Part shown: one piece after another, positions 19,257 to 28,956 of the stretch
How the letters are laid out: every line of letters begins with the position of its first letter
How positions within the stretch are numbered: the stretch's first letter is position 1
DNA from: Chitinophaga pinensis
GTDB lineage: Bacteria; Bacteroidota; Bacteroidia; UKL13-3
Direction: 5' to 3'
DNA: 64,000 nucleotides
Assembly (NCBI GenBank): GCA_945860865.1
Contig: CAMARW010000003.1
Span: forward strand, 123,177 to 187,176
Translations under genes and position numbers: made by a program
The notes under the pieces: generated by a model
The model's input: only the letters and a program-made list of their open reading frames with translations
What the model was told of the DNA's origin: nothing
Databases searched by the model: none

Positions 19257-19742
19257 ATGAGCAAACTAAACGCCATTGGGCTTAACAAAAAGAAAGCCGA
19301 CGAGCTAGCAGAGAATTTAAACGTGTTGTTAGCCAACTATTCTATTTTCTATCAAAACACCCGCGGGTTACATTGGAACATTAAAGGGGACAAATTTTTT
19401 GAATTGCATTTAAAGTTTGAAGAGCTTTATAACGATTTACTACTTAAAATAGATGAAGTTGCTGAGCGTATTTTAACTTTGGGGCATACTCCTCACCACA
19501 ATTATTCGCAGTATATTAAGGTGGCAAGTATTAAAGAAAGTAAGCAAGTAAGTAGTGGTGTATTGGCTGTTGAAGAGGTTTTAAACAACTTCCAGATTAT
19601 CCTTCCTTTGCAGCGCGCCCTATTAACATTGAGCGGCGAAGCGGAAGATGAAGGTACCAGCGCACTCATGAGTGATTACATTCGCGCGCAAGAAAAGTTA
19701 GTATGGATGTATGGCGCTTTTATGAATAGAGAAAAGCATTAA
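19257..19742 (+). CDS. dps: Dps family DNA-binding ferritin-like protein
   Basis: Dps forms 12-subunit shells that oxidise and store iron and protect DNA under stress. I start at the ATG at 19257 (MSKLNAIGL, 161 residues) rather than the TTG 15 bases upstream. The ferroxidase region is recognisable: 'NTRGLHWNIKGDKFFELHLKFEELYND' carries the ligand His and 'KIDEVAERIL' the acidic ligands. Helical content and length fit the family. The lysine-rich N-terminus could bind DNA. Its stop overlaps the convergent dnaE2-like gene by four bases. Confidence 0.92.
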   Translation: MSKLNAIGLNKKKADELAENLNVLLANYSIFYQNTRGLHWNIKGDKFFELHLKFEELYNDLLLKIDEVAERILTLGHTPHHNYSQYIKVASIKESKQVSSGVLAVEEVLNNFQIILPLQRALLTLSGEAEDEGTSALMSDYIRAQEKLVWMYGAFMNREKH

Positions 19743-22700
19743 TACCGAGGATCTGGCCGAGTGGGAAGCTTGGCCAGTTTACTTACCTCTACAGAATAAA
19801 ATCCAAACTCTTGCACCACTTTGCCTTCTATTAAATACACTCCTCTGCCCTCAAATGGGTATTTAGCAAGGGATTGAGCAAAGTGTGTGGTATCGAAAAA
19901 GTTGGATTGCACATCGTAGAATGTGCCGAAGGCCATATAATCGCCACGTACTGTTTTTACATTTTTTGCAGTTACGTAGTTGCCCAGCATTCTAACGGTT
20001 TGACCCAAATATTTACTCATATCAACGGCTACAACATCTCCCCTATAATCTGTTTGAAGCAAATCGAATTCGCTCATGCTGAGGGGAAACCCTAACAGTT
20101 CAATTTCATCGTAAGCATCTTCAATTTCGTTGTGAACCAAAGCTGGCAAGGTGAATTCTTTGTGTGATTTAGCTGGTAGTAATTCTAGCATGGTTTCCTG
20201 TACCAAGTTTTGAATGCCCTTAGGCAGGCTCAAGGAAACATCTCTGTTCAATGTAAAAGCGCTACTACTTTCATCGTTAGAATCAATTCGCCTACGCCGC
20301 ACGTCACCCTGAGCTTGTCGAATGGGCTGAACGGGTTGAAGGGAATACGCTTGCCACATCAAGTTCTTCTTCCCCATTCCACAAAACTTAAAAGCACCTA
20401 CTTTGATGAGTATTTTTATTTGAAGTACGCTAATAGGTACTCGATCTATAAAGTCGATGAAGCTTTGGAAGGGACCATTTGTGGAACGTTCAACTAAGAT
20501 GGCTTCAATAGATTTAAGCTCCAAGCTTTCAATGTGTGTAAAACCTAAATACACATCCTCGCCTTTGATATTGGTGAATTGATCCGATTCATTTACACAA
20601 GGAAGGTGCACTTTTGCGCCTGTTTTTTTGAGCTCGGTTACATAAACCCAAGTTCTATAAAAGCCGCCAAAATTATTAATCACACCCACCATAAACTCCA
20701 TGGGGTAATAGGTTTTGAGGAATAAGCTCTGAAAGCTTTCCACAGCAAATGAAGCTGAGTGCGCCTTGCTAAAAGAGTAACCCGCAAAGCTTTCAATTTG
20801 TCGCCAAACCTCTTTACTGAGTTCATCTGGATAACCCTTTTCTTTACAATTGGCGAAGAACTTATCAATAATTTTTTGGAACTCTGCTTTGGACCTAAAT
20901 TTACCGCTCATGGCTCTGCGTAACACATCGGCATCGGCCAAATCTAAACCTGCAAAATGGTGACAAACTTTCAGTACATCTTCTTGAAACACCATTACGC
21001 CATAAGTTTCTTCGAGCTGTTCCTGCATCACTGGATGCAAATAATTGATACTTTTAGGGTCGTGAAAACGTTGAATATAAGCCCTCATCATGCCCGATTT
21101 TGCTACCCCTGGTCTAATAATCGAGCTAGCTGCAACCAAGTGAATGTAAGTGTCGCATTTGAGCTTTTTTAATAACCCACGCATGCCAGGACTTTCAATA
21201 TAAAAACAACCAATGCTATTTGCCTCTTTAAGTTGTTGTTTGATGAGGGGGTCGTTTTTAAATTTTTGCACTTCATGCACATCTACTTTTATCTGTTTAT
21301 TTTGCCAAACAAGTTCTGCGGCATCTTTGATATGACCAATTCCGCGTTGCGACAAAATGTCAAATTTTTCGAAGCCAATATCCTCCGACATATACATATC
21401 CCATTGCACGGTTGGCAATCCAACGGGCGGTAAATCCAAGGCTGAATATTGAAAAATAGGTTCTTCGGAAATGAGCACGCCACCAGCATGAATGGAACGA
21501 TGATTTGGGAAATCTTGCAGTTGTGTTCCTATGTTGAGTATCTTGGCAATAACAGGCGATTTGCGATCGGCCTTATGCGGATAATCGGCTAGGATATCAA
21601 TTTCGCTTTTAGGTAAGCCATACACTTTACCCAGTTCTCTGTAGATGGAGCTACTTCTAAAAGTAGACATAGTGCCAAGCAAAGCGGTATGATCTCTACC
21701 ATAACGTTTGAAAATATAATCGTGTACTTGCGGGCGTTCTTTCCAGCTGTAATCAATATCAAAATCGGGCGGAGAGGTGCGCTTGGGGTTCAAAAAACGT
21801 TCGAAATACAGGTTCAATTCTATGGGGTCAACATCCGTAATTCGCAAGCAGTATGCCACTACACTATTGGCGCCACTCCCCCGCCCTACATGGTAAAATC
21901 CTTTCGACATAGAGTAACGAATGATATCCCAGGTGATTAAAAAATAGGCCGAAAAACCTAATTTATCTATGATGTCTAATTCCTTTTGCACCCTTTGCTT
22001 GGCGACAGTATTGTTCGATCCATAGCGGTATGTTAAACCATCATAAGCGAGGGTTTGTAGTAACTGCTTATCGTCGTACACCGAAGAAGAATATACTTTT
22101 TTGTTTTTGTGTGTTTTAAAATCGAAGCTTACACTGCAGCGATCCATGAAAGCAATGGTATTATTGAGTACATAATGATGATACCTGCATGCATGAATGA
22201 TATCGGGCTCCGACATGAAGTACTCATCTGGTGCAGCAACGGCATTTGGTTCGAGCCTACTTAATAACACATTATTATCTATAGCTCTTAGGTGCATGTG
22301 AAGTGGGTAGCTAGCGGCATTTCTAAAGGTAACAGGTTGTTGTAGAATGAGTTTATTTTTAATCTTACTCACATCTTTGCGCAGGAGTTTATTGAACTCA
22401 GAGAGGCGAATGCCAATGAGTTCATGATCTGCAAGGATGCCAGGGTAATTGTAGATTGGGTAAATTACAAAGCTATTTTGCAAATGTTTGAGCCTATCGG
22501 CGTAGGCTCGGCCATATAAATTGTAATCAGATAACAGTCGATTGATTTCTTGTATGCCAGCAGTATTTTTAGCAACAGCGGTAAACAGCAAATGGTTACC
22601 CTCTCTAAACTCAATGCCAGCAATCGGTTTGATCCCATGTTGTTCGCAGCATTTCACAAACTCAAAAATGCCCGTTGAGCAATTGATATCGGTGATACCT

Positions 22701-22798
22701 ATTGTTTGCAAACCAAGCTGCTTAGCTTGTAGTACAAGCTCCTCTACCGACAAGGTGCCGTAGCGTAAGCTGTAGTATGTGTGTATATTCCAGAGCAT
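19739..22798 (-). CDS. dnaE2: Error-prone DNA polymerase III alpha subunit (DnaE2/ImuC-like)
   Basis: A 1,019-residue C-family polymerase, shorter than replicative DnaE. The N-terminal PHP domain (residues 1-70, 'IHTYYSLRYGTLSVEEL') has weakened metal motifs. The polymerase core has 'HVGRGSGANSVVAYCLRITDVDP' and the catalytic 'PPDFDIDY' (D345, D347, D349). 'GYSFSKAHSASFA' lies in the fingers region, and the C-terminus resembles an OB fold ('LGNYVTAKNVKTVRGDYMAFGTF'). With dinB and the S24 repressor nearby, and a shared operator upstream, it looks like the polymerase of a damage-inducible mutagenesis cassette. Residues about 819-862 are encoded by an inserted REP-like repeat. The DnaE2 subclass is inferred from length and context. 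Confidence 0.9.
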   Translation of the reverse strand: MLWNIHTYYSLRYGTLSVEELVLQAKQLGLQTIGITDINCSTGIFEFVKCCEQHGIKPIAGIEFREGNHLLFTAVAKNTAGIQEINRLLSDYNLYGRAYADRLKHLQNSFVIYPIYNYPGILADHELIGIRLSEFNKLLRKDVSKIKNKLILQQPVTFRNAASYPLHMHLRAIDNNVLLSRLEPNAVAAPDEYFMSEPDIIHACRYHHYVLNNTIAFMDRCSVSFDFKTHKNKKVYSSSVYDDKQLLQTLAYDGLTYRYGSNNTVAKQRVQKELDIIDKLGFSAYFLITWDIIRYSMSKGFYHVGRGSGANSVVAYCLRITDVDPIELNLYFERFLNPKRTSPPDFDIDYSWKERPQVHDYIFKRYGRDHTALLGTMSTFRSSSIYRELGKVYGLPKSEIDILADYPHKADRKSPVIAKILNIGTQLQDFPNHRSIHAGGVLISEEPIFQYSALDLPPVGLPTVQWDMYMSEDIGFEKFDILSQRGIGHIKDAAELVWQNKQIKVDVHEVQKFKNDPLIKQQLKEANSIGCFYIESPGMRGLLKKLKCDTYIHLVAASSIIRPGVAKSGMMRAYIQRFHDPKSINYLHPVMQEQLEETYGVMVFQEDVLKVCHHFAGLDLADADVLRRAMSGKFRSKAEFQKIIDKFFANCKEKGYPDELSKEVWRQIESFAGYSFSKAHSASFAVESFQSLFLKTYYPMEFMVGVINNFGGFYRTWVYVTELKKTGAKVHLPCVNESDQFTNIKGEDVYLGFTHIESLELKSIEAILVERSTNGPFQSFIDFIDRVPISVLQIKILIKVGAFKFCGMGKKNLMWQAYSLQPVQPIRQAQGDVRRRRIDSNDESSSAFTLNRDVSLSLPKGIQNLVQETMLELLPAKSHKEFTLPALVHNEIEDAYDEIELLGFPLSMSEFDLLQTDYRGDVVAVDMSKYLGQTVRMLGNYVTAKNVKTVRGDYMAFGTFYDVQSNFFDTTHFAQSLAKYPFEGRGVYLIEGKVVQEFGFYSVEVSKLAKLPTRPDPRY
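20216..20327. repeat. REP-like inverted-repeat insertion inside dnaE2
   Basis: The right arm (20303-20327) contains CCCTGAGCTTGTCGAATGGG, and the left arm (20216-20239) is its imperfect inverse. I align 18 of 25 positions. Translated, the arms give 'RQAQG' and 'LSLPKG', recurrent signatures of this dispersed repeat in environmental bacterial genomes. The reading frame stays open through it, so it adds an unusual Arg/Ser-rich linker to the polymerase. Confidence 0.7.
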
Positions 22799-22842: not shown

Positions 22843-22858
22843 GTTAATTTAGTTAACT
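22843..22858. promoter_or_regulatory. Operator-like site upstream of dnaE2
   Basis: GTTAATTTAGTTAACT, arms GTTAA/TTAAC. It differs by one base from the site before the S24 repressor gene (28149-28164) and by two from the site before dinB (28053-28068, minus strand). Likely bound by the S24 repressor. Confidence 0.6.
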
Positions 22859-22862
22859 TTTA

Positions 22863-22880
22863 TTAGTTAAATAAAATAAC
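22863..22880. promoter_or_regulatory. Second operator-like half-site cluster, dnaE2 side
   Basis: TTAGTTAAATAAAATAAC matches 28028-28045 at the dinB start (TTAGTTAAATATATTAAC) in 16 of 18 positions, so a second shared element accompanies the first. Confidence 0.5.
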
Positions 22881-22998
22881 AAATTAAAATGAAAGTGCAA
22901 GAATTTTTAATTTTCATTGCAGTTCTATCCTCATTATCAATCAAAAACATATTTCTTATTTGGATTAACTTAAATACCACTAAATAAAATAATAAAGG

Positions 22999-23028
22999 TA
23001 TATTTGAATACGTTATTAACTAAATAAC
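22999..23028 (+). promoter_or_regulatory. Promoter and inverted repeat before the beta-helix gene
   Basis: An exact -7 box TATATTTG at 22999-23006, followed at 23012-23028 by GTTATTAACTAAATAAC, an inverted repeat with GTTATT/AATAAC arms that would overlap the transcription start. It contains the TTAACTAAAT core of the dnaE2 operator, so the inserted gene may fall under the same repressor. Confidence 0.45.
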
Positions 23029-23040
23029 ACTCACTCAGCC

Positions 23041-24594
23041 ATGGCAACAATTAACTACTCTATTTCATTTTTAAGAAATGACCCTTCATTTGTTCCGATA
23101 GCAGCAGATTTATATTATACTACTGATATTGGACAAGAAGGTTTTTGGCGCTATGATTTGGGCGATTCAATTAGCGCAGATAATACAGGGATTGTAATAG
23201 TTACTTTTAATGACTCAAGGTTAAAACGAATATTTGATGGATTAATTAATGTAAAGTGGTTTGGAGCAAAAGGAGATGCTTTTCCTGACAATTTAACTCC
23301 CACAAATGATACTGCTAACATTCAGAATGCAATTGATTCTATGCAGCGATATTATAATAGTGCATACCCAAATGCCGTTAATCAAACTGTTTCTGAAAGT
23401 TCTGGCGGCTTATTTTTTCCAGCAGGGTTTTACCTTATTGATACCATTTCAATAAAAGCAGATAACTCTTCAGCTCAACTAAAATGGAAGGGAGAAACTT
23501 TAAGAGTAAACCTAGTAGGAAGTGGAATGCTATCAACTCTTTTTGTTGGAAACACCTCTTATTTCCCTTCTGAGGTAGAGCCTACAGCATCATCATATAT
23601 TACAACAAGAAATCTAATAGAAGTATTTAACCCATATACAAATTTAAAAGATTTTGGAATTGTTGGTAGTCCACTAATTGACGGTTCTTACTATCATAAC
23701 ATGTTAGATACAACACCTTATTATTATGGCCCAGGGTATGAGTTTATAGGTATTTACGCCGAAAAATGTGCTTTTTTAAATATAGAACGAGTTTTTGTGA
23801 GGTCGTGTGACACAGCAATAAATTTCAAAGGGGTACTTACATCCAATATAAACAACTGTATTATTGGTGGAGAAAATGTTTGGACAAATACTTCTGATCC
23901 AGATCCTGAAAGGCATACCTTTTATGATCCAAATCAGGCATGTTTAAATGGAATAATATTAGATTATGATGAAGGCTATGATGCAAACCAAATTTCCATA
24001 TTTGAATCTAGAATAGTATGGTGTAGGAATTGGGGATTGCAATATTCCAAGGGCTCCATGTTACATATTGAGAATTGCACTTTTGAAGCAAATGGATGGT
24101 ATTTAACTAATTCTGAAACTACTAAATATGTTCCGGTAGATGGAGACCCAAGTACTGGAGCTTTGAGAATATATCCGAGAAATTCTGCACAACCACCAGA
24201 AAATCCAAATCTGTCACTCACAGATGTTATAAACATTTCAAAGTCATGGTTTGAAGCCAATTTAGGGTACTCTATTTATTGCTATTATGCGATTTATGAC
24301 CAGTTAATATTTAATCTAATTGGAAATACTTTTATAGCTGCTAATAATAAAGATACCAATATAAATAAATTACATTTTGGTGTTAAAATAGATTTAAGTC
24401 CAAATTTACCATCCAATTCAAAAACAGTAAATGTGATTGGATGTGTTAGTAAAATTGACAAAATTAAAATAAGTATTACTTTTCATAATACATTTAAAAT
24501 AATATGTGCGGAAGCAAATATCATAGGATCTGACTTATTTAGTCCAGAAATTTACCCTAGTACCCAAACTAGTTTAAAAATAAATAAAATTTAG
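23041..24594 (+). CDS. Right-handed beta-helix protein (pectate-lyase superfamily, PF12708-like)
   Basis: A 517-residue protein. The segment 'VKWFGAKGDAFPDN ... TANIQNAIDSM ... GGLFFPAGFYLID' (residues about 77-140) is the start of the pectate_lyase_3/GH28-related fold, and the remaining 350 residues have beta-helix character ('LNIERVFVRSCDTAINF', 'SMLHIENCTFEANG'). No signal peptide or sorting domain is present, which is odd for a sugar-active enzyme. The first 75 residues ('FLRNDPSFVPIAADLYYTTDIGQEGFWRYD') resemble small N-terminal modules seen before this domain. It stands between dnaE2 and dinB and is followed 5 bases later by the first lipoprotein gene. Catalytic residues cannot be assigned. 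It may bind or cut polysaccharide. Confidence 0.75.
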   Translation: MATINYSISFLRNDPSFVPIAADLYYTTDIGQEGFWRYDLGDSISADNTGIVIVTFNDSRLKRIFDGLINVKWFGAKGDAFPDNLTPTNDTANIQNAIDSMQRYYNSAYPNAVNQTVSESSGGLFFPAGFYLIDTISIKADNSSAQLKWKGETLRVNLVGSGMLSTLFVGNTSYFPSEVEPTASSYITTRNLIEVFNPYTNLKDFGIVGSPLIDGSYYHNMLDTTPYYYGPGYEFIGIYAEKCAFLNIERVFVRSCDTAINFKGVLTSNINNCIIGGENVWTNTSDPDPERHTFYDPNQACLNGIILDYDEGYDANQISIFESRIVWCRNWGLQYSKGSMLHIENCTFEANGWYLTNSETTKYVPVDGDPSTGALRIYPRNSAQPPENPNLSLTDVINISKSWFEANLGYSIYCYYAIYDQLIFNLIGNTFIAANNKDTNINKLHFGVKIDLSPNLPSNSKTVNVIGCVSKIDKIKISITFHNTFKIICAEANIIGSDLFSPEIYPSTQTSLKINKI

Positions 24595-24599
24595 TAAAA

Positions 24600-25760
24600 A
24601 TGGAATGCAAGAATCGAATTAATATTAATAAAATGAACAATTTTATAGGCCCTTATAAATTCTTCACCTCACAGCTTTTGAATAATAAGTTAATTCTATT
24701 GGCATATATAACAATCGCTATTTTTGCATCCTGCAAAAAGACTTCACCAGCAAACGATCCTCCTGAACCCATTAAATCTATTGTCCTTCCTTCTTTAGAT
24801 ATGGATTTAGTATCTCCTTGTTACGCATTACCAGACAATAGTTTAGTCCTTATGGGAGGATATATTAATTCCAATAACCTTCATTTATTAAAGTTTGACA
24901 AAGACCTAAATCTTATTGATTCTGCGGTTTTAAACAACGTATCTCTAGATGTTTTCGACAATATAGTAAGAGGAGATAAGTTTTATGTAAAAACATATAA
25001 TGGTTTTTTCGAAATAAACTCAAATTTAGAAACGGTACAAATAAACCCAAAAATAGAAAAGGATATGGGTTTCGATAATTCAGCAGGTATTCATGCTATG
25101 GCCTGCTGCATAGGTCCAGGTGAAACAATTTTATTTGCTGCAAATGGACATGTAGGTGGGGTAAAAAAGTTTGTGCTTGCTGCTTATGGCCAAGATATAA
25201 CCAAGCCCTTATGGGTGGTTGATACTTTACCAATGGGTGGAGGGACTGATGTCGTTACTAATATTGGTTACTTTGATAATAAGCTTTTTGTTTGGGGTTC
25301 TCAGAGTATTAATACAAGTTCAACTAAAAATTACACGAAAATATATCAATGGGGAGGAACACTCTTATATGAAAAACTTCTTGAAACACAATTTATAAGA
25401 GGTCATAATTGCAGGGTATTGGATTCTAGCTTAGTAATTCAACCTGGAATATGTTATTGGTTAAATGATAATACAATAAAATTCACTGGTATTTATGCTG
25501 ATCAAATTTTCCCAAACCCACTTAATGGCTATACTGTTTTCTATTCATCTGAAGGAAATCGAAGTGGTGGAGGATATATTTGTAATTTGAGTAAAGATTT
25601 TCTTATTCAAAAAAAACATACACTTCCCAACGTCCCTGTCCCTTATACTCAGGTTTTTGGACCTGCCGGCCCAGATACCTGGATTTTTGCAAGTAGTTTT
25701 CATGACGATAATAATATTATGAAAATACGACTCACCAAATTAAATAAGAATTTGGAGTAA
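24600..25760 (+). CDS. Lipoprotein, paralog 1 of a tandem pair
   Basis: A 386-residue protein with lipobox 'AIFASC' (C45) followed by 'KKTSPANDPPEP'. A later start (ATG 24633) would shorten the long leader. The body (residues about 60-386) is beta-rich, with segments such as 'LLKFDKDLNLIDSAVL', 'KPLWVVDTLPMGGG' and 'YTVFYSSEGNRSGGGY', and ends 'LRLTKLNKNLE'. It is clearly related to the next gene: same lipobox, same motif order, same C-terminus. Regular repeats of about 45 residues suggest a beta-propeller-like fold, which is inference. It starts five bases after the beta-helix gene, so probably one operon. The family is not recognised. Confidence 0.8.
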   Translation: MECKNRININKMNNFIGPYKFFTSQLLNNKLILLAYITIAIFASCKKTSPANDPPEPIKSIVLPSLDMDLVSPCYALPDNSLVLMGGYINSNNLHLLKFDKDLNLIDSAVLNNVSLDVFDNIVRGDKFYVKTYNGFFEINSNLETVQINPKIEKDMGFDNSAGIHAMACCIGPGETILFAANGHVGGVKKFVLAAYGQDITKPLWVVDTLPMGGGTDVVTNIGYFDNKLFVWGSQSINTSSTKNYTKIYQWGGTLLYEKLLETQFIRGHNCRVLDSSLVIQPGICYWLNDNTIKFTGIYADQIFPNPLNGYTVFYSSEGNRSGGGYICNLSKDFLIQKKHTLPNVPVPYTQVFGPAGPDTWIFASSFHDDNNIMKIRLTKLNKNLE

Positions 25761-25807
25761 AAATTATCCAAACATTTTGTATGAAAAGTCTATGAAAAAA
25801 AGAATTT

Positions 25808-26887
25808 ATGGAAATTAAAAATTTAACTCTGTTTTTGTTGGTTACCATTTTTTTTGCCTCTTGCAAAAAGTCTACACCCAAAAATGAGCCTGATCCAGTA
25901 CCAAATTTGACGGTAATAATTCCTTTTAACAATTTGGGCTTTTATAGGAACAATTTTATCCCATTACCAGATCAAAGTTTTGCTGTATGGGCAAGCGAAG
26001 ATGTGGCAAGTAGTTATCATTTTTTTCATTTCGATAAAGACCTAAAGCTATTAGACACAGCAATCTTTAGGAATACTAAATTTAGAAATCAAAGTGTTGT
26101 TAGAGAAAAAAGCATATTTTCAATAATGGGTAAAGATTTGATTGAAACTGATTTTAATTTTAATGTGATAAATCAAAACACCCACATTGACAAAGATCTT
26201 GGACTAGACTCCAAGACTACAAATATGGTAATTTGCGATGGTCCAAATAACACGTTATTGCTTTTGGTTGCAAGTCAAATAAACGGCTTAGGAAAGTTAG
26301 TATTAGCCGTATACGATAGCAAAATAACAAAGCCACTACAGATAATTGACACTCTCTCTAATATTAGTATTCCTCCAAACCTTTATTCTATGGCTTTTTT
26401 AAACAACAAAGTTTATATTATAGGCTATAATGACTTAAGCAGCCGTATAGTATGGACAATTAAACAATATGATTTTAATGGCAAATTGAACTGGATAAAT
26501 TCTGACTATAATTTAGAGGGATATTTTGGGGTATTAGATTCCACTTTGTATTTATTAGATAACAGAAAAGTTTTAGAGGATGGAACTATTGTAAATGAAT
26601 TTAAGGGGAGTTTAATTTATCAAAATTCTTTAAATGGATTCACAACTTTTTATTCTATTTTATACAGTGATCCGTCTGGACTTAAATATACAACTGGATA
26701 CATGGCTAATTTAAGCTCAGGTTTCCAAGTTGAAAAAGAAACAAAAATAAAGGTAGACAATGGCCTATATAATACTTTCGGCCCAGTGGATAAAGACTCT
26801 TGGGTTTATATAAGTGCCTTTTTAGATGCAAACGATGGCGGGAAAAGAAAACTTCGTCTCGAAAAAATCAATAAAAATTTGGAGTAG
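25808..26887 (+). CDS. Lipoprotein, paralog 2 of a tandem pair
   Basis: A 359-residue protein with a short clean lipoprotein signal (MEIKNLTLFLLVTIFFASCKK, C at 19), then a Pro/Glu linker 'STPKNEPDPVPN'. The body repeats the pattern of the preceding gene: 'FFHFDKDLKLLDTAIF', 'HIDKDLGLDSK', 'LVLAVYDSKITKPLQIIDTL', 'NGFTTFYSILYSDPSG' and the C-terminal 'LRLEKINKNLE'. By eye, identity is moderate and spread along the whole length, so this is an old tandem duplication. It ends 3 bases before the convergent dinB stop. Envelope location is predicted; the function is unknown. Confidence 0.8.
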   Translation: MEIKNLTLFLLVTIFFASCKKSTPKNEPDPVPNLTVIIPFNNLGFYRNNFIPLPDQSFAVWASEDVASSYHFFHFDKDLKLLDTAIFRNTKFRNQSVVREKSIFSIMGKDLIETDFNFNVINQNTHIDKDLGLDSKTTNMVICDGPNNTLLLLVASQINGLGKLVLAVYDSKITKPLQIIDTLSNISIPPNLYSMAFLNNKVYIIGYNDLSSRIVWTIKQYDFNGKLNWINSDYNLEGYFGVLDSTLYLLDNRKVLEDGTIVNEFKGSLIYQNSLNGFTTFYSILYSDPSGLKYTTGYMANLSSGFQVEKETKIKVDNGLYNTFGPVDKDSWVYISAFLDANDGGKRKLRLEKINKNLE

Positions 26888-26890
26888 TAA

Positions 26891-28027
26891 CTACGTTCTC
26901 CCCTTTCCTACAGCCTTCTTCCCATACCAATGTTTAATTTGATCGAGGGCTTGATAGAGTTTGATCATTTCTTCGCTGTCTTCAAACAAATCGATTTGTT
27001 GGGAGCCATAAACGAGGTTACTTACTTTTACGCCAATGAGGCGAATGAGTAAGCGTCGGTCGTACACTTTATCAAGCAATTCTTTTGCTTTAGCCAGTAT
27101 TACATGGTCGTAAGAGGTATAGGCAACTCTGGCTTGCATGGTATGCGTTTGGAAATCTGAGTAACGAATTTTAATGGTTACAGTTGCGCACAATCGGTTT
27201 TGTTTGCGCATATCAAAGCACACATCTTGCACCATTTTGGAGAGTACACCATGCAGAAATTTCATGTCGGTGGTATCTGTTTCAAAGGTTCGTTCTGAAC
27301 CAATAGACTTTTGCTCATGGTAAGGCTGCACCGGCCTGTTGTCTATGCCATTGGCTTTTTCCCATATTACTTTCCCATTTTCGCCCATTACTCTACCTAG
27401 TAATTCAATGGGCATATTGGCTAAGGTTTCTATGTATACAATACCCATATCGCGCAGTGTATGATATGATTTATCGCCAATACCCGGTATTTTTTTGATA
27501 GAAAGCGGATTTAAAAAAGGCTTTACCTGTGGCGCTGCAACCTCTTTTTCTCCGTTTGGCTTGGCCTCTCCTGTTGCAATTTTAGAAACTGTTTTGTTTA
27601 CAGATAAACCAAAAGAAATAGGCAAACCTGTTTCTTTTATAATGCGCAAGCGCAACTCGTGCATCCATTTTTGCGTACCAAAAAAGCGGTCCATGCCTGT
27701 AACATCTAAATAATGCTCATCTATGGAGGCTTTTTCTACCAAAGGGGCTTCCGATGTAATAACCTCAGTTACCAAATGAGAAAGCTTGCTGTACTTGTCC
27801 ATATCGCCGCGTATCCAAATGGCTTGCGGGCAAATTCTGCGGGCCAACTTACCCGGCATAGCAGCATGAACGCCAAATTTACGTGCCTCATAACTGCAAC
27901 TTGCCACCACACCCCTATCCGAAAAACCTCCAATAATAACGGGCTTTCCCGCCAAATCAGCATTCTCTAAACGCTCTACCGATACAAAGAAAGTATCTAA
28001 ATCCATGTGCGCAATTACTTTGTTCAT
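26891..28027 (-). CDS. dinB: Y-family DNA polymerase IV (DinB)
   Basis: A 378-residue translesion polymerase. The catalytic acids are in place: D9 in 'HMDLDTFFVSVERL', and D103/E104 in 'SIDEHYLDVTG', where most relatives have Ala, Phe or Tyr instead of His105. 'CSYEARKFGVHAAMP' contacts the incoming nucleotide. The helix-hairpin-helix 'IKKIPGIGDKSYHTLRDMGI' and the little-finger domain follow. A beta-clamp motif 'QIDLF' is at residues 344-348. The start MNKVIAHMDLDTFF fits the family. The upstream operator is shared with the S24 repressor gene and dnaE2, so expression is probably damage-induced. Confidence 0.95.
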   Translation of the reverse strand: MNKVIAHMDLDTFFVSVERLENADLAGKPVIIGGFSDRGVVASCSYEARKFGVHAAMPGKLARRICPQAIWIRGDMDKYSKLSHLVTEVITSEAPLVEKASIDEHYLDVTGMDRFFGTQKWMHELRLRIIKETGLPISFGLSVNKTVSKIATGEAKPNGEKEVAAPQVKPFLNPLSIKKIPGIGDKSYHTLRDMGIVYIETLANMPIELLGRVMGENGKVIWEKANGIDNRPVQPYHEQKSIGSERTFETDTTDMKFLHGVLSKMVQDVCFDMRKQNRLCATVTIKIRYSDFQTHTMQARVAYTSYDHVILAKAKELLDKVYDRRLLIRLIGVKVSNLVYGSQQIDLFEDSEEMIKLYQALDQIKHWYGKKAVGKGRT

Positions 28028-28045
28028 TTAGTTAAATATATTAAC
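28028..28045. promoter_or_regulatory. Operator-like element abutting the dinB start
   Basis: TTAGTTAAATATATTAAC directly precedes the dinB ATG on the minus strand. It is 16/18 identical to 22863-22880 beside dnaE2 and overlaps the probable -7 region (TATATTTA on the minus strand). Confidence 0.5.
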
Positions 28046-28052
28046 ATTTATC

Positions 28053-28068
28053 AGGTAAGTAAATTAAC
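28053..28068 (-). promoter_or_regulatory. Operator-like site upstream of dinB
   Basis: The minus strand reads GTTAATTTACTTACCT. Together with the preceding CAAAAA and about 15 following bases it aligns with the region before the S24 repressor gene over some 37 positions with few mismatches, so the two control regions share ancestry or a binding protein. Confidence 0.6.
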
Positions 28069-28148
28069 TTTTTGAATTCAAAATTAAAAATTAAAAATTC
28101 CAAATCCGAAACTCAATGTTCTAAAGAGCCTTATCACTACTGCAAAAA

Positions 28149-28164
28149 GTTAATTTAATTAACT
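28149..28164. promoter_or_regulatory. Operator-like site upstream of the S24 repressor gene
   Basis: GTTAATTTAATTAACT; with the preceding A the arms are AGTTAAT and ATTAACT around TTA. It lies immediately upstream of the -33 element, as expected for autoregulation. Confidence 0.6.
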
Positions 28165-28169
28165 AATAC

Positions 28170-28200
28170 TTGTTATTTAAAATGTCATTATTTATATTGC
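28170..28200 (+). promoter_or_regulatory. Promoter of the S24 repressor gene
   Basis: TTG at 28170-28172, 20 bases, then TATATTGC at 28193-28200, a near match to TAnnTTTG. Confidence 0.5.
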
Positions 28201-28242: not shown

Positions 28243-28956
28243 ATGTACTTATCTAGCAACGTAAAATTCCTGCGTAAAAGAAAGAATTTGAGTCAGGAAG
28301 AAATGGCTATCGCCATAGATTCTAAACGATCTGTTTTGAATAGCTATGAAAACAATATCGCCTCCCCTCCCTTGGAAATGGCCATGCGTATTTCAGACTA
28401 TTTTAAGATAAGCTTAGATACTTTATTACGCATTGATCTCATTAGATTACCAGAATATAAAGTGGGTGAATTAGAGCGCGGCTTAGAAGATTACATGAAG
28501 GGGAAATACCTCAGGGTAATTGCCACTACCACCAACCACGATAATGTAGATAATATAGAGATGGTTTCTGAAAAGGCCAGTGCTGGCTACACTTCCGGCT
28601 ATAGCGACATTCAATTTATATCGGAATTGCCCCAGTTTAGTTTGCCCTTTTTAGACAAACGCAAGAAGTATCGTAGCTTTCAAATTAGCGGCGATTCTAT
28701 GTTGCCCATACAAGATAGAACCTATGTTACCTGCGAATATGTAGAAGATTGGACAAGCCTAAAAGACGGACTATGTTATGTTATTTTAACCAAAGAAGAT
28801 GGCATTGTTTTTAAGCGCGTATACAATGATATTGCTAAAAATAAAACGCTTGCCTTGGTTTCAAACAACCCCATTTACAAGCCTTATGAGGTGAAAATTG
28901 AAGATGTATTAGAGATCTGGAAATATGTAATGGATCACAGCAAAACATTGGATTGA
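28243..28956 (+). CDS. LexA-like repressor: XRE-type HTH plus S24 autopeptidase
   Basis: A 237-residue protein. Residues 6-62 form a Cro/C1-type helix-turn-helix ('LRKRKNLSQEEMAIAIDSKRSVLNSYE'). The C-terminal half is a peptidase S24 domain with the catalytic pair S152 in 'ISGDSMLP' and K191 in 'VFKRVYN'. A114-G115 in 'KASAGY' is a plausible self-cleavage bond, as in LexA and CI. By family knowledge, RecA filaments would trigger cleavage and release the operators. It sits next to dinB and close to dnaE2, and all three carry the same operator-like site. It lacks the winged-helix domain of classical LexA. The SOS-like role is inferred. Confidence 0.9.
   Translation: MYLSSNVKFLRKRKNLSQEEMAIAIDSKRSVLNSYENNIASPPLEMAMRISDYFKISLDTLLRIDLIRLPEYKVGELERGLEDYMKGKYLRVIATTTNHDNVDNIEMVSEKASAGYTSGYSDIQFISELPQFSLPFLDKRKKYRSFQISGDSMLPIQDRTYVTCEYVEDWTSLKDGLCYVILTKEDGIVFKRVYNDIAKNKTLALVSNNPIYKPYEVKIEDVLEIWKYVMDHSKTLD

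Follow-up and report, generated by a model that had tools for sequence, protein, structure and literature searches.

A phage CI-like repressor of the S24 type very probably controls, as judged from sequence, an SOS regulon composed of its own gene, recA, dinB and dnaE2 through the operator GTTAA-N5-TTAAC in the Chitinophaga pinensis genome studied here. Computation established that the boxes exist, are conserved within the genus and go with repressor class, and it established the domains and residues of the proteins. All coordinates refer to the window, a 64,000-nucleotide stretch of contig CAMARW010000003.1, unless another contig is named. The repressor gene (28243..28956, plus strand) encodes 237 amino acids, with matches to Pfam HTH_3 at residues 8-61 (PF01381, E 1.4e-11) and Peptidase_S24 at residues 111-226 (PF00717, E 4.2e-9). 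The residues of self-cleaving repressors that the first-pass annotation had read in this protein are all present, namely the predicted cleavage bond Ala114-Gly115 (codons 28582..28587, plus), the predicted nucleophile Ser152 (28696..28698, plus) and the predicted general base Lys191 (28813..28815, plus), and none of them varies among the 28 aligned proteins, the window's own included. Orthologues were identified in 18 of the 19 genus genomes, and the search of the window's own genome returned this one match and no second; two further S24-domain matches there belong to much longer open frames (738 and 1150 amino acids). The NCBIfam search gave the repressor no specific name. A structure model of moderate confidence (pLDDT 77, below 50 in the cleavage region; pTM 0.49) retrieved lambda/186 repressors and LexA in a fold search, with loose full-length matches (TM 0.3-0.5).

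The neighboring dinB gene (26891..28027, minus strand) encodes a Y-family polymerase (Pfam IMS/IMS_C; NCBIfam DNA polymerase IV) containing the catalytic motifs DLD at residue 9 and SIDE at 101 and a clamp-type QIDLF at 344. The gene called dnaE2 here (19739..22798, minus strand) encodes a second DnaE-type C-family polymerase of 1019 amino acids (Pfam DNA_pol3_alpha/finger/PHP), which matches the NCBIfam error-prone polymerase model PRK05672 below its cut-off; another DnaE was located at G000:C7. The 16-mer GTTAATTTAnTTAmCT, reported in the first-pass annotation before dnaE2 (22843-22858, plus), dinB (28053-28068, minus) and the repressor gene (28149-28164, plus), occurs at all three places with zero mismatches, and a search of the genome (2,587,429 bases) returned three exact matches, all within the cassette. 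With three mismatches allowed, 25 matches were observed in the window against 18.7 +/- 5.0 expected from shuffles; since this is background level, what sets the 16-mer apart is its exactness, where it stands and how well it is conserved, and such raw counts were dropped as evidence. Two one-mismatch copies outside the cassette and recA were also rejected, one being inside an unrelated ORF (C6:98102) and the other in a 33-bp gap whose flanking genes do not look like repair genes (C7:87086).

A supposed second element, TTAGTTAAATA...TAAC, had been placed correctly at 22863 and 28028 but is not separate: it repeats the GTTAA-N5-TTAAC dyad (copies at 22866-22880 and 28031-28045), so that each polymerase gene carries two boxes 23 bp apart. 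The window contains five such dyads, listed without strand. At dnaE2, a perfect proximal putative operator (22843..22857) is accompanied by a distal one with one mismatch (22866..22880); at dinB, the perfect proximal box (28031..28045) ends 4 bp before the ATG and the distal box (28054..28068) again has one mismatch; and a single perfect dyad, GTTAATTTAATTAAC (28149..28163), is positioned 80-94 bp upstream of the repressor ATG. The noted resemblance between the control regions of dinB and the repressor gene was borne out at 30 of 37 identical bases (28040-28076 versus 28141-28177), whereas the best likeness in 200 mononucleotide shuffles averaged 20.9 and reached at most 25.

In the genus genomes read, the dyad is kept upstream of the orthologous cassettes at the repressor gene, dinB and separately promoted dnaE2. 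Allowing one mismatch in ten positions, it was identified in 17/17 repressor, 13/13 dinB, 18/18 recA and 7/7 own-promoter dnaE2 regions (55/55), the dnaE2 figure reflecting a choice made after the boxes were seen, because five box-free genus loci (L042, L044, L045, L047, L053) were left out, while the other three sets were not so chosen; the sister-genus locus L054 and the cut repressor locus L048 were also omitted from these counts. GTTAA ranked first among 1024 pentamer dyads in each of the four promoter sets, the runner-up reaching 21/55. The exact dyad was less common than the reversed pattern in 19/19 genus genomes, a comparison that says little, the latter being a different palindrome. 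The pair of boxes 23 bp apart, with up to two mismatches in 20 positions, is present in 10 of 13 genus dinB promoters; a clear pair is absent at L043 and L051 and weak at L050. For dnaE2, the pair occurs in 7/7 loci where the gene lies at least 126 bp from dinB and in 0/6 where it lies 109 bp or less behind it (6 of 13 loci: the five box-free loci and L054). A tandem model (R1) searched against the 19 genus genomes gave matches with E < 0.01 at cassette genes only, as judged by contig and position, nine of which were verified by tblastn; its best match in the window's own genome is the dnaE2 pair (E 3.2e-10), itself a training row. Set A1 excluded dinB of L043, L050, L051 and L054, and set A3 consists of 48 boxes chosen from the sets.

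The regulon proposed in the first-pass annotation (the repressor, dinB and dnaE2) is supported by these data with three corrections: its two elements are a single palindrome in tandem, recA, which lies outside the window and also carries a box, had been overlooked, and a circuit of this kind was already known. The dyad is found at recA in 18/18 genus genomes with a recA match and in 0/28 relatives outside the genus, where exact CTAA is found in 3/28. Identity within the genus is 0.94 in the dyad columns, 0.72 in the spacer, 0.46 in the 60 bp upstream and 0.74 downstream. With a box at recA too, a RecA-repressor loop would close. The repressor and recA boxes sit further upstream, making the direction of regulation there less sure.

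The genome contains 15 perfect dyads, 10 within ORFs and five outside, of which four precede dnaE2, dinB, the repressor gene and recA and the fifth (C2:26069) lies between convergent genes. The best places of a single-box model (R2) in this genome were recA, the repressor gene, C2:26068, dnaE2 and dinB, followed by an intragenic site; training of R1 and R2 partly used the window's own boxes, so these ranks are no independent proof. The first scan scored 150 candidates per genome. For the extra R2 sites in this genome (C2:26068 and weaker ones), the four neighborhoods inspected hold no repair gene recognizable by sequence. From the longer lists of matches for nine of the 18 other genus genomes, four sites beyond the cassette and recA were inspected: three fall in ORFs, and the fourth is intergenic with no repair gene beside it.

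Across genomes, box type tracks repressor class. Exact CTAA boxes were found in 0/55 genus promoters, whereas class B repressor promoters contain GTTAA in 0/15 and exact CTAA in 9/15. A genus member, G018, possesses both repressor classes together with two umuDC operons, one per box type. Outside the genus, the nearest orthologue (G027/L054; 62% identical, likewise with dinB-dnaE2 neighbors) has no GTTAA dyad upstream and carries a different palindrome, TTATTGTCAAATAATTGACAATAA; among 14 class A side repressors outside the genus, a perfect GTTAA dyad was found in 0/14 and a one-mismatch dyad in 2/14 (L033, L077), little above chance.

Look-alike palindromes arising from AT-rich upstream DNA could in principle produce such boxes, and shuffling one promoter does yield one-mismatch single boxes at a rate of up to 7%, while three-mismatch matches in the window are at background; chance is nevertheless extremely unlikely, given the first rank of GTTAA in all four promoter sets and the clear pairs of 10 dinB and 7 dnaE2 promoters, which none of 300 shuffles of each equalled. 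It is very unlikely that the boxes serve another regulator, such as a global AT-rich DNA binder, which the repressor adjoins by coincidence: the dyad is AT-rich, two-thirds of its perfect genomic copies are intragenic and the 68% complete genome G016 has the recA box with no repressor found, but box type follows repressor class even within G018, and the window's genome holds no second repressor match. The repressor might instead regulate these genes in response to something other than DNA damage, self-cleavage having been lost or being differently signaled. The cleavage region is poorly modeled, and both cleavage and contact with RecA are predictions; we consider this reading very unlikely, however, because the Ala-Gly, Ser and Lys residues are invariant, recA itself carries the box and homologues are mitomycin-inducible (PMC8565304).

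For the favored SOS repressor, we infer binding, cooperativity, cleavage and induction as follows. The product of the gene at 28243 would be a non-canonical LexA-type repressor whose dimer binds the dyad, occupying in the undamaged cell the single boxes at its own gene and recA and the pairs immediately upstream of dinB and dnaE2, whose 23-bp spacing (about two helical turns) would place both boxes on the same face, thereby keeping the mutagenic polymerases off. Upon DNA damage, a RecA filament would prompt the repressor to cut itself at Ala114-Gly115 by means of its Ser152/Lys191 dyad, and the falling repressor level would induce recA, dinB, dnaE2 and the repressor gene. Tandem boxes on the mutagenic polymerases, compared with the lone boxes of recA and, for the most part, of the repressor gene, predict tighter and later polymerase expression.

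Canonical LexA shares with this protein the S24 domain and probable RecA-induced self-cleavage, but the repressor has no LexA winged-helix match (Pfam), and TIGR00498 is absent from its NCBIfam matches. Consistent with the earlier remark that the motif is not a classical LexA box, the familiar E. coli-type (one mismatch allowed) and Gram-positive-type (two mismatches) forms occurred in 0/55 genus promoters. Lambda operator pairs lie about two helical turns apart, and CI of the lambda/186 type resembles the repressor in this paired arrangement, in its N-terminal helix-turn-helix fold and in its S24 C-terminal domain; the boxes here, in contrast, precede DNA-repair genes, and a Pfam scan of nine window proteins, in which three matched nothing, gave no phage family.

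Phage-like S24 proteins that act as SOS repressors in Bacteroidetes through different motifs have been described as 'non-canonical LexA', with gel shifts and mitomycin induction, with WP_075324850.1 and WP_025606010.1 as reference proteins and in two clusters set by CTAA-N5-TTAG or GGA-N5-TCC, divergent motifs being accepted in the family (Sanchez-Osuna et al., 2021; PMC8565304). With HTH_3 and Peptidase_S24 domains, Ala-Gly and Ser-Lys residues and, by sequence, shared putative operators at the repressor, polymerases and recA, the window repressor fits this family, so the type of system is already known; neither published motif occurs exactly in any of the 55 genus promoters, and the repressor is therefore placed in neither sub-group. 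The CTAA group is alike in its phage-like HTH (PF01381) and S24 domain with Ala-Gly, Ser and Lys, its targets (the repressor itself, dinB, a DNA polymerase III alpha gene and recA), its 13-bp dyad core with a 5-bp spacer and the presence of at least two boxes in several promoters (PMC8565304). The system here differs from that group in its outer C:G pair replaced by T:A with G...C added outside, in the roughly four promoters found here and in tree position: in a tree made up of the relatives found here, a supported branch separates it from the CTAA-type proteins that occur within its bacterial family. The divergent repressor of Elizabethkingia anophelis (TTAC-AAATT-GTAA) shares the dyad-spacer layout and lies opposite an error-prone polymerase gene, but its half-site is TTAC and its family comprises several paralogues rather than the single repressor of the window's genome (PMC8565304); exact TTAC-N5-GTAA occurs in 5/55 genus promoters, all of recA, at one conserved place off the dyad. 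Neither GTTAA-N5-TTAAC nor TTAA-N5-TTAA was found in the literature searched, the supplements of PMC8565304, which hold divergent palindromes, being excepted. New here are the operator, which differs from both CTAA-N5-TTAG and GGA-N5-TCC, the 23-bp tandem, which CTAA-type relatives have as well, and the two repressor classes with two umuDC operons of G018; the whole appears to be a lineage-specific variant of an SOS circuit already described in Bacteroidota.

Elsewhere in the bacterial family, the commonest repressor is of the CTAA-N5-TTAG class (8 of 18 genomes). In G015 and G018, a CTAA-class repressor still adjoins dinB-dnaE2, and boxes of the second, GTTAA-N5-TTAAC repressor are present at that repressor's gene, at recA and, in G018, at one of the two umuDC operons. 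No CTAA repressor was found in the remaining genus members, where the GTTAA repressor has the whole box set and, where contigs show it, adjoins a different dinB-dnaE2 cassette. The genus may tentatively be regarded, at somewhat less than even chances, as a LexA operator switch caught midway, and the tandem in both classes suggests that DNA geometry is retained while half-site sequence turns over. The operators of SOS repressors change unusually often in evolution, and a route in which two repressors coexist and one takes over has been proposed, inferred after the fact (PMC8565304). One- and two-repressor members with mixed boxes at recA, umuDC and dinB-dnaE2 within one genus would allow this switch route to be tested directly.

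The regulatory regions of the cassette formed by the S24 repressor gene (28243–28956, plus strand), dinB and dnaE2 contain five boxes of the palindromic type GTTAA-N5-TTAAC. Two are located upstream of dnaE2 (22843–22857 and 22866–22880) and two upstream of dinB (28031–28045 and 28054–28068), each pair being 23 bp apart, and a single box precedes the repressor gene (28149–28163). The 16-mer that the first-pass annotation had placed at 22843, 28053 (minus strand) and 28149 was confirmed at these positions, and a search of the 2.59 Mb genome identified no further exact match; the second element that it described is present too, but as one more GTTAA-N5-TTAAC box rather than a separate motif.

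The repressor is present in 18 of the 19 genomes of the genus, missing from one that is 68% complete (G016), and dinB/dnaE2 cassettes are syntenic as far as the contigs reach, save in genomes G015 and G018. When each of the 1024 possible pentamer dyads was scored at a spacer of 5 bp, allowing at most one mismatch, GTTAA ranked first upstream of the repressor (17/17), dinB (13/13) and recA (18/18), as well as of those dnaE2 genes that have a promoter of their own (7/7), a set picked after the boxes had been seen; over all 55 genus promoters, which include those of near relatives and are not all independent, the second-best dyad reached 21. Within the genus, the motif is conserved upstream of orthologous cassettes, a point on which the first-pass annotation had made its proposal depend. 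The 23-bp pair, with at most 3/20 mismatches, was identified at all seven of the 13 loci in which dnaE2 lies at least 126 bp from dinB (between match ends), and at none of the six in which this distance is at most 109 bp, as would be expected if the latter genes are read from the dinB promoter. Among the dinB promoters, 10/13 contain a 23-bp pair with at most two mismatches; the remainder show a weak pair with four mismatches (L050), a better fit at 27 bp (L043) and a single box (L051). The repressor promoters have one good box; in 7/17, another lies 23 bp away, the two together having at most three mismatches. The operators of phage lambda have a similar centre spacing.

The recA gene of the same genome (contig C1) carries a perfect box beginning 164 bp upstream of the start codon, and each of the 18 genus genomes in which recA was matched (G009 gave no match) has a box, mismatched at no more than one position, that begins 149–187 bp upstream. 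Constancy in this region is 0.94 for the dyad, 0.72 for the spacer, and 0.46 and 0.74 for the upstream and downstream flanks. The proposed link of the repressor, dinB and dnaE2 through a shared operator is upheld by comparison but left out recA, and inclusion of recA in the SOS circuit is supported by the promoter sequences. Outside the genus, 30 genomes were queried; none of the 28 with recA has a GTTAA box upstream of it, and three (G019, G031 and G036) have the exact published Bacteroidetes motif CTAA-N5-TTAG, the sole match to the repressor in G036 being a weak HTH match. In the window's genome, recA is immediately preceded by a co-oriented ssb gene (PF00436), and the recA box lies between the two. 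Downstream of the box, the genus recA regions (L100–L117) share a strongly conserved stretch near GGTAAAACTTGTGGATA, and a similar stretch precedes recA in two genomes from other genera, G024 and G035.

The repressor harbors HTH_3 and Peptidase_S24 domains, and the Ala-Gly bond, Ser and Lys noted in the first-pass annotation are invariant in 28/28 aligned proteins. Its AlphaFold model (pLDDT 77, pTM 0.49) retrieved, at full length, a lambda-186 hybrid repressor, LexA and CI in loose superposition (TM 0.3–0.5, probability 1.0); the C-terminal domain matched the corresponding domains of LexA, some of them in RecA-bound form (TM to target ≤0.71), and the N-terminal domain matched P22 c2 and SinR (≤0.89). 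Used as a query, the repressor has one match in its own genome, which contains two more S24-domain matches, both inside long open frames. The dinB product contains IMS and IMS_C domains and retains the catalytic motifs and one of clamp type; DinB as the query detects no second Y-family polymerase in this genome, and does detect UmuC-type genes in G018 and G015. The third gene encodes a DnaE-type polymerase of 1019 aa with a PHP domain, and because its score against the NCBIfam error-prone polymerase model is under the cut-off, the name dnaE2 rests on the neighbouring genes; another DnaE is encoded on contig C7. Between dnaE2 and dinB (23041–26887) lie three genes without Pfam matches (517, 386 and 359 aa), the latter two resembling paralogous lipoproteins; relatives occupy the corresponding position in L046 and were seen in no other cassette read. 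Inserts of 1.6–4.2 kb separate dinB from the repressor in L039, L042, L046 and L053, and genes appear to have inserted into the cassette repeatedly.

The genome contains 15 perfect dyads, 10 within mechanically called ORFs and five outside; four of these five precede dnaE2, dinB, the repressor and recA, and the fifth lies between convergent genes. A tandem-box model placed every pair with E < 0.01 in the 19 genomes at cassette genes; a single-box model added no repair gene at the places read, a umuDC operon in G018 excepted; both models were trained partly on the window's boxes. Judging from this placement and these searches, the set looks small, comprising the repressor, recA, dinB and dnaE2, and weak boxes upstream of other genes may remain among the 258 sites with at most one mismatch, part of which were listed.

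Another repressor, 36–40% identical to that of the window, occurs in 8/18 genomes from the rest of the bacterial family; adding the members found in G015, G018 and further families gives 15 class B repressors. In a quick tree with several long branches and SH-aLRT support only, a branch with support 95 parts 31 rows including the window protein (class A side) from 17 with class B. Box type follows the same division: GTTAA occurs in 55/55 and exact CTAA in 0/55 genus promoters, against 0/15 and 9/15 class B repressor promoters. In the class B promoters, 23 bp is the best two-box spacing in 11/15 (two tied with another spacing), with a clear pair (at most 2/16 mismatches) in 9/15. The recognition-helix stretch KRSVLNSYE is identical in 17/17 aligned genus proteins, whereas the nine repressors whose promoters hold an exact CTAA box have the RxR(I/L)GSYE type, a difference that we infer may be linked to the changed outer base pair of the operator. 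The closest orthologue from beyond the genus, that of G027, lacks a GTTAA dyad and carries another palindrome. In this sister-genus cassette (L054/L027), a 24-bp palindrome, TTATTGTCAAATAATTGACAATAA, replaces the dyad upstream of dinB and the repressor and is possibly a further operator type. Of the 14 class A side repressors from beyond the genus, a second one in G027 and that of G035 have a GTTAA dyad with one mismatch, and the remaining 12 have none.

This repressor family of the Bacteroidetes was described by Sanchez-Osuna et al. (2021; PMC8565304), who reported induction by mitomycin, gel shifts with CTAA-N5-TTAG and with GGA-N5-TCC and, in E. anophelis, a divergent TTAC-N5-GTAA site, and who tied paralogy to motif change and small regulons. 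They mention promoters with two or more boxes; where they treat tandem boxes or spacing, no 23-bp rule is stated. Both repressor classes are present in two genus members, G015 and G018, in which the CTAA repressor adjoins its own dinB-dnaE2 and the GTTAA repressor stands without them. G018 has two umuDC operons (L222 and L223, with S24 and IMS domains), one umuD being closely preceded by a perfect GTTAA dyad, whereas an exact CTAA box lies at the start of the other; neither box was found within the stretch read at umuDC of G015. The comparisons support a small SOS circuit, recA included, that belongs to a known family and would have its own operator and tandem layout; most interesting is that both repressor-box systems occur together in two genus members.
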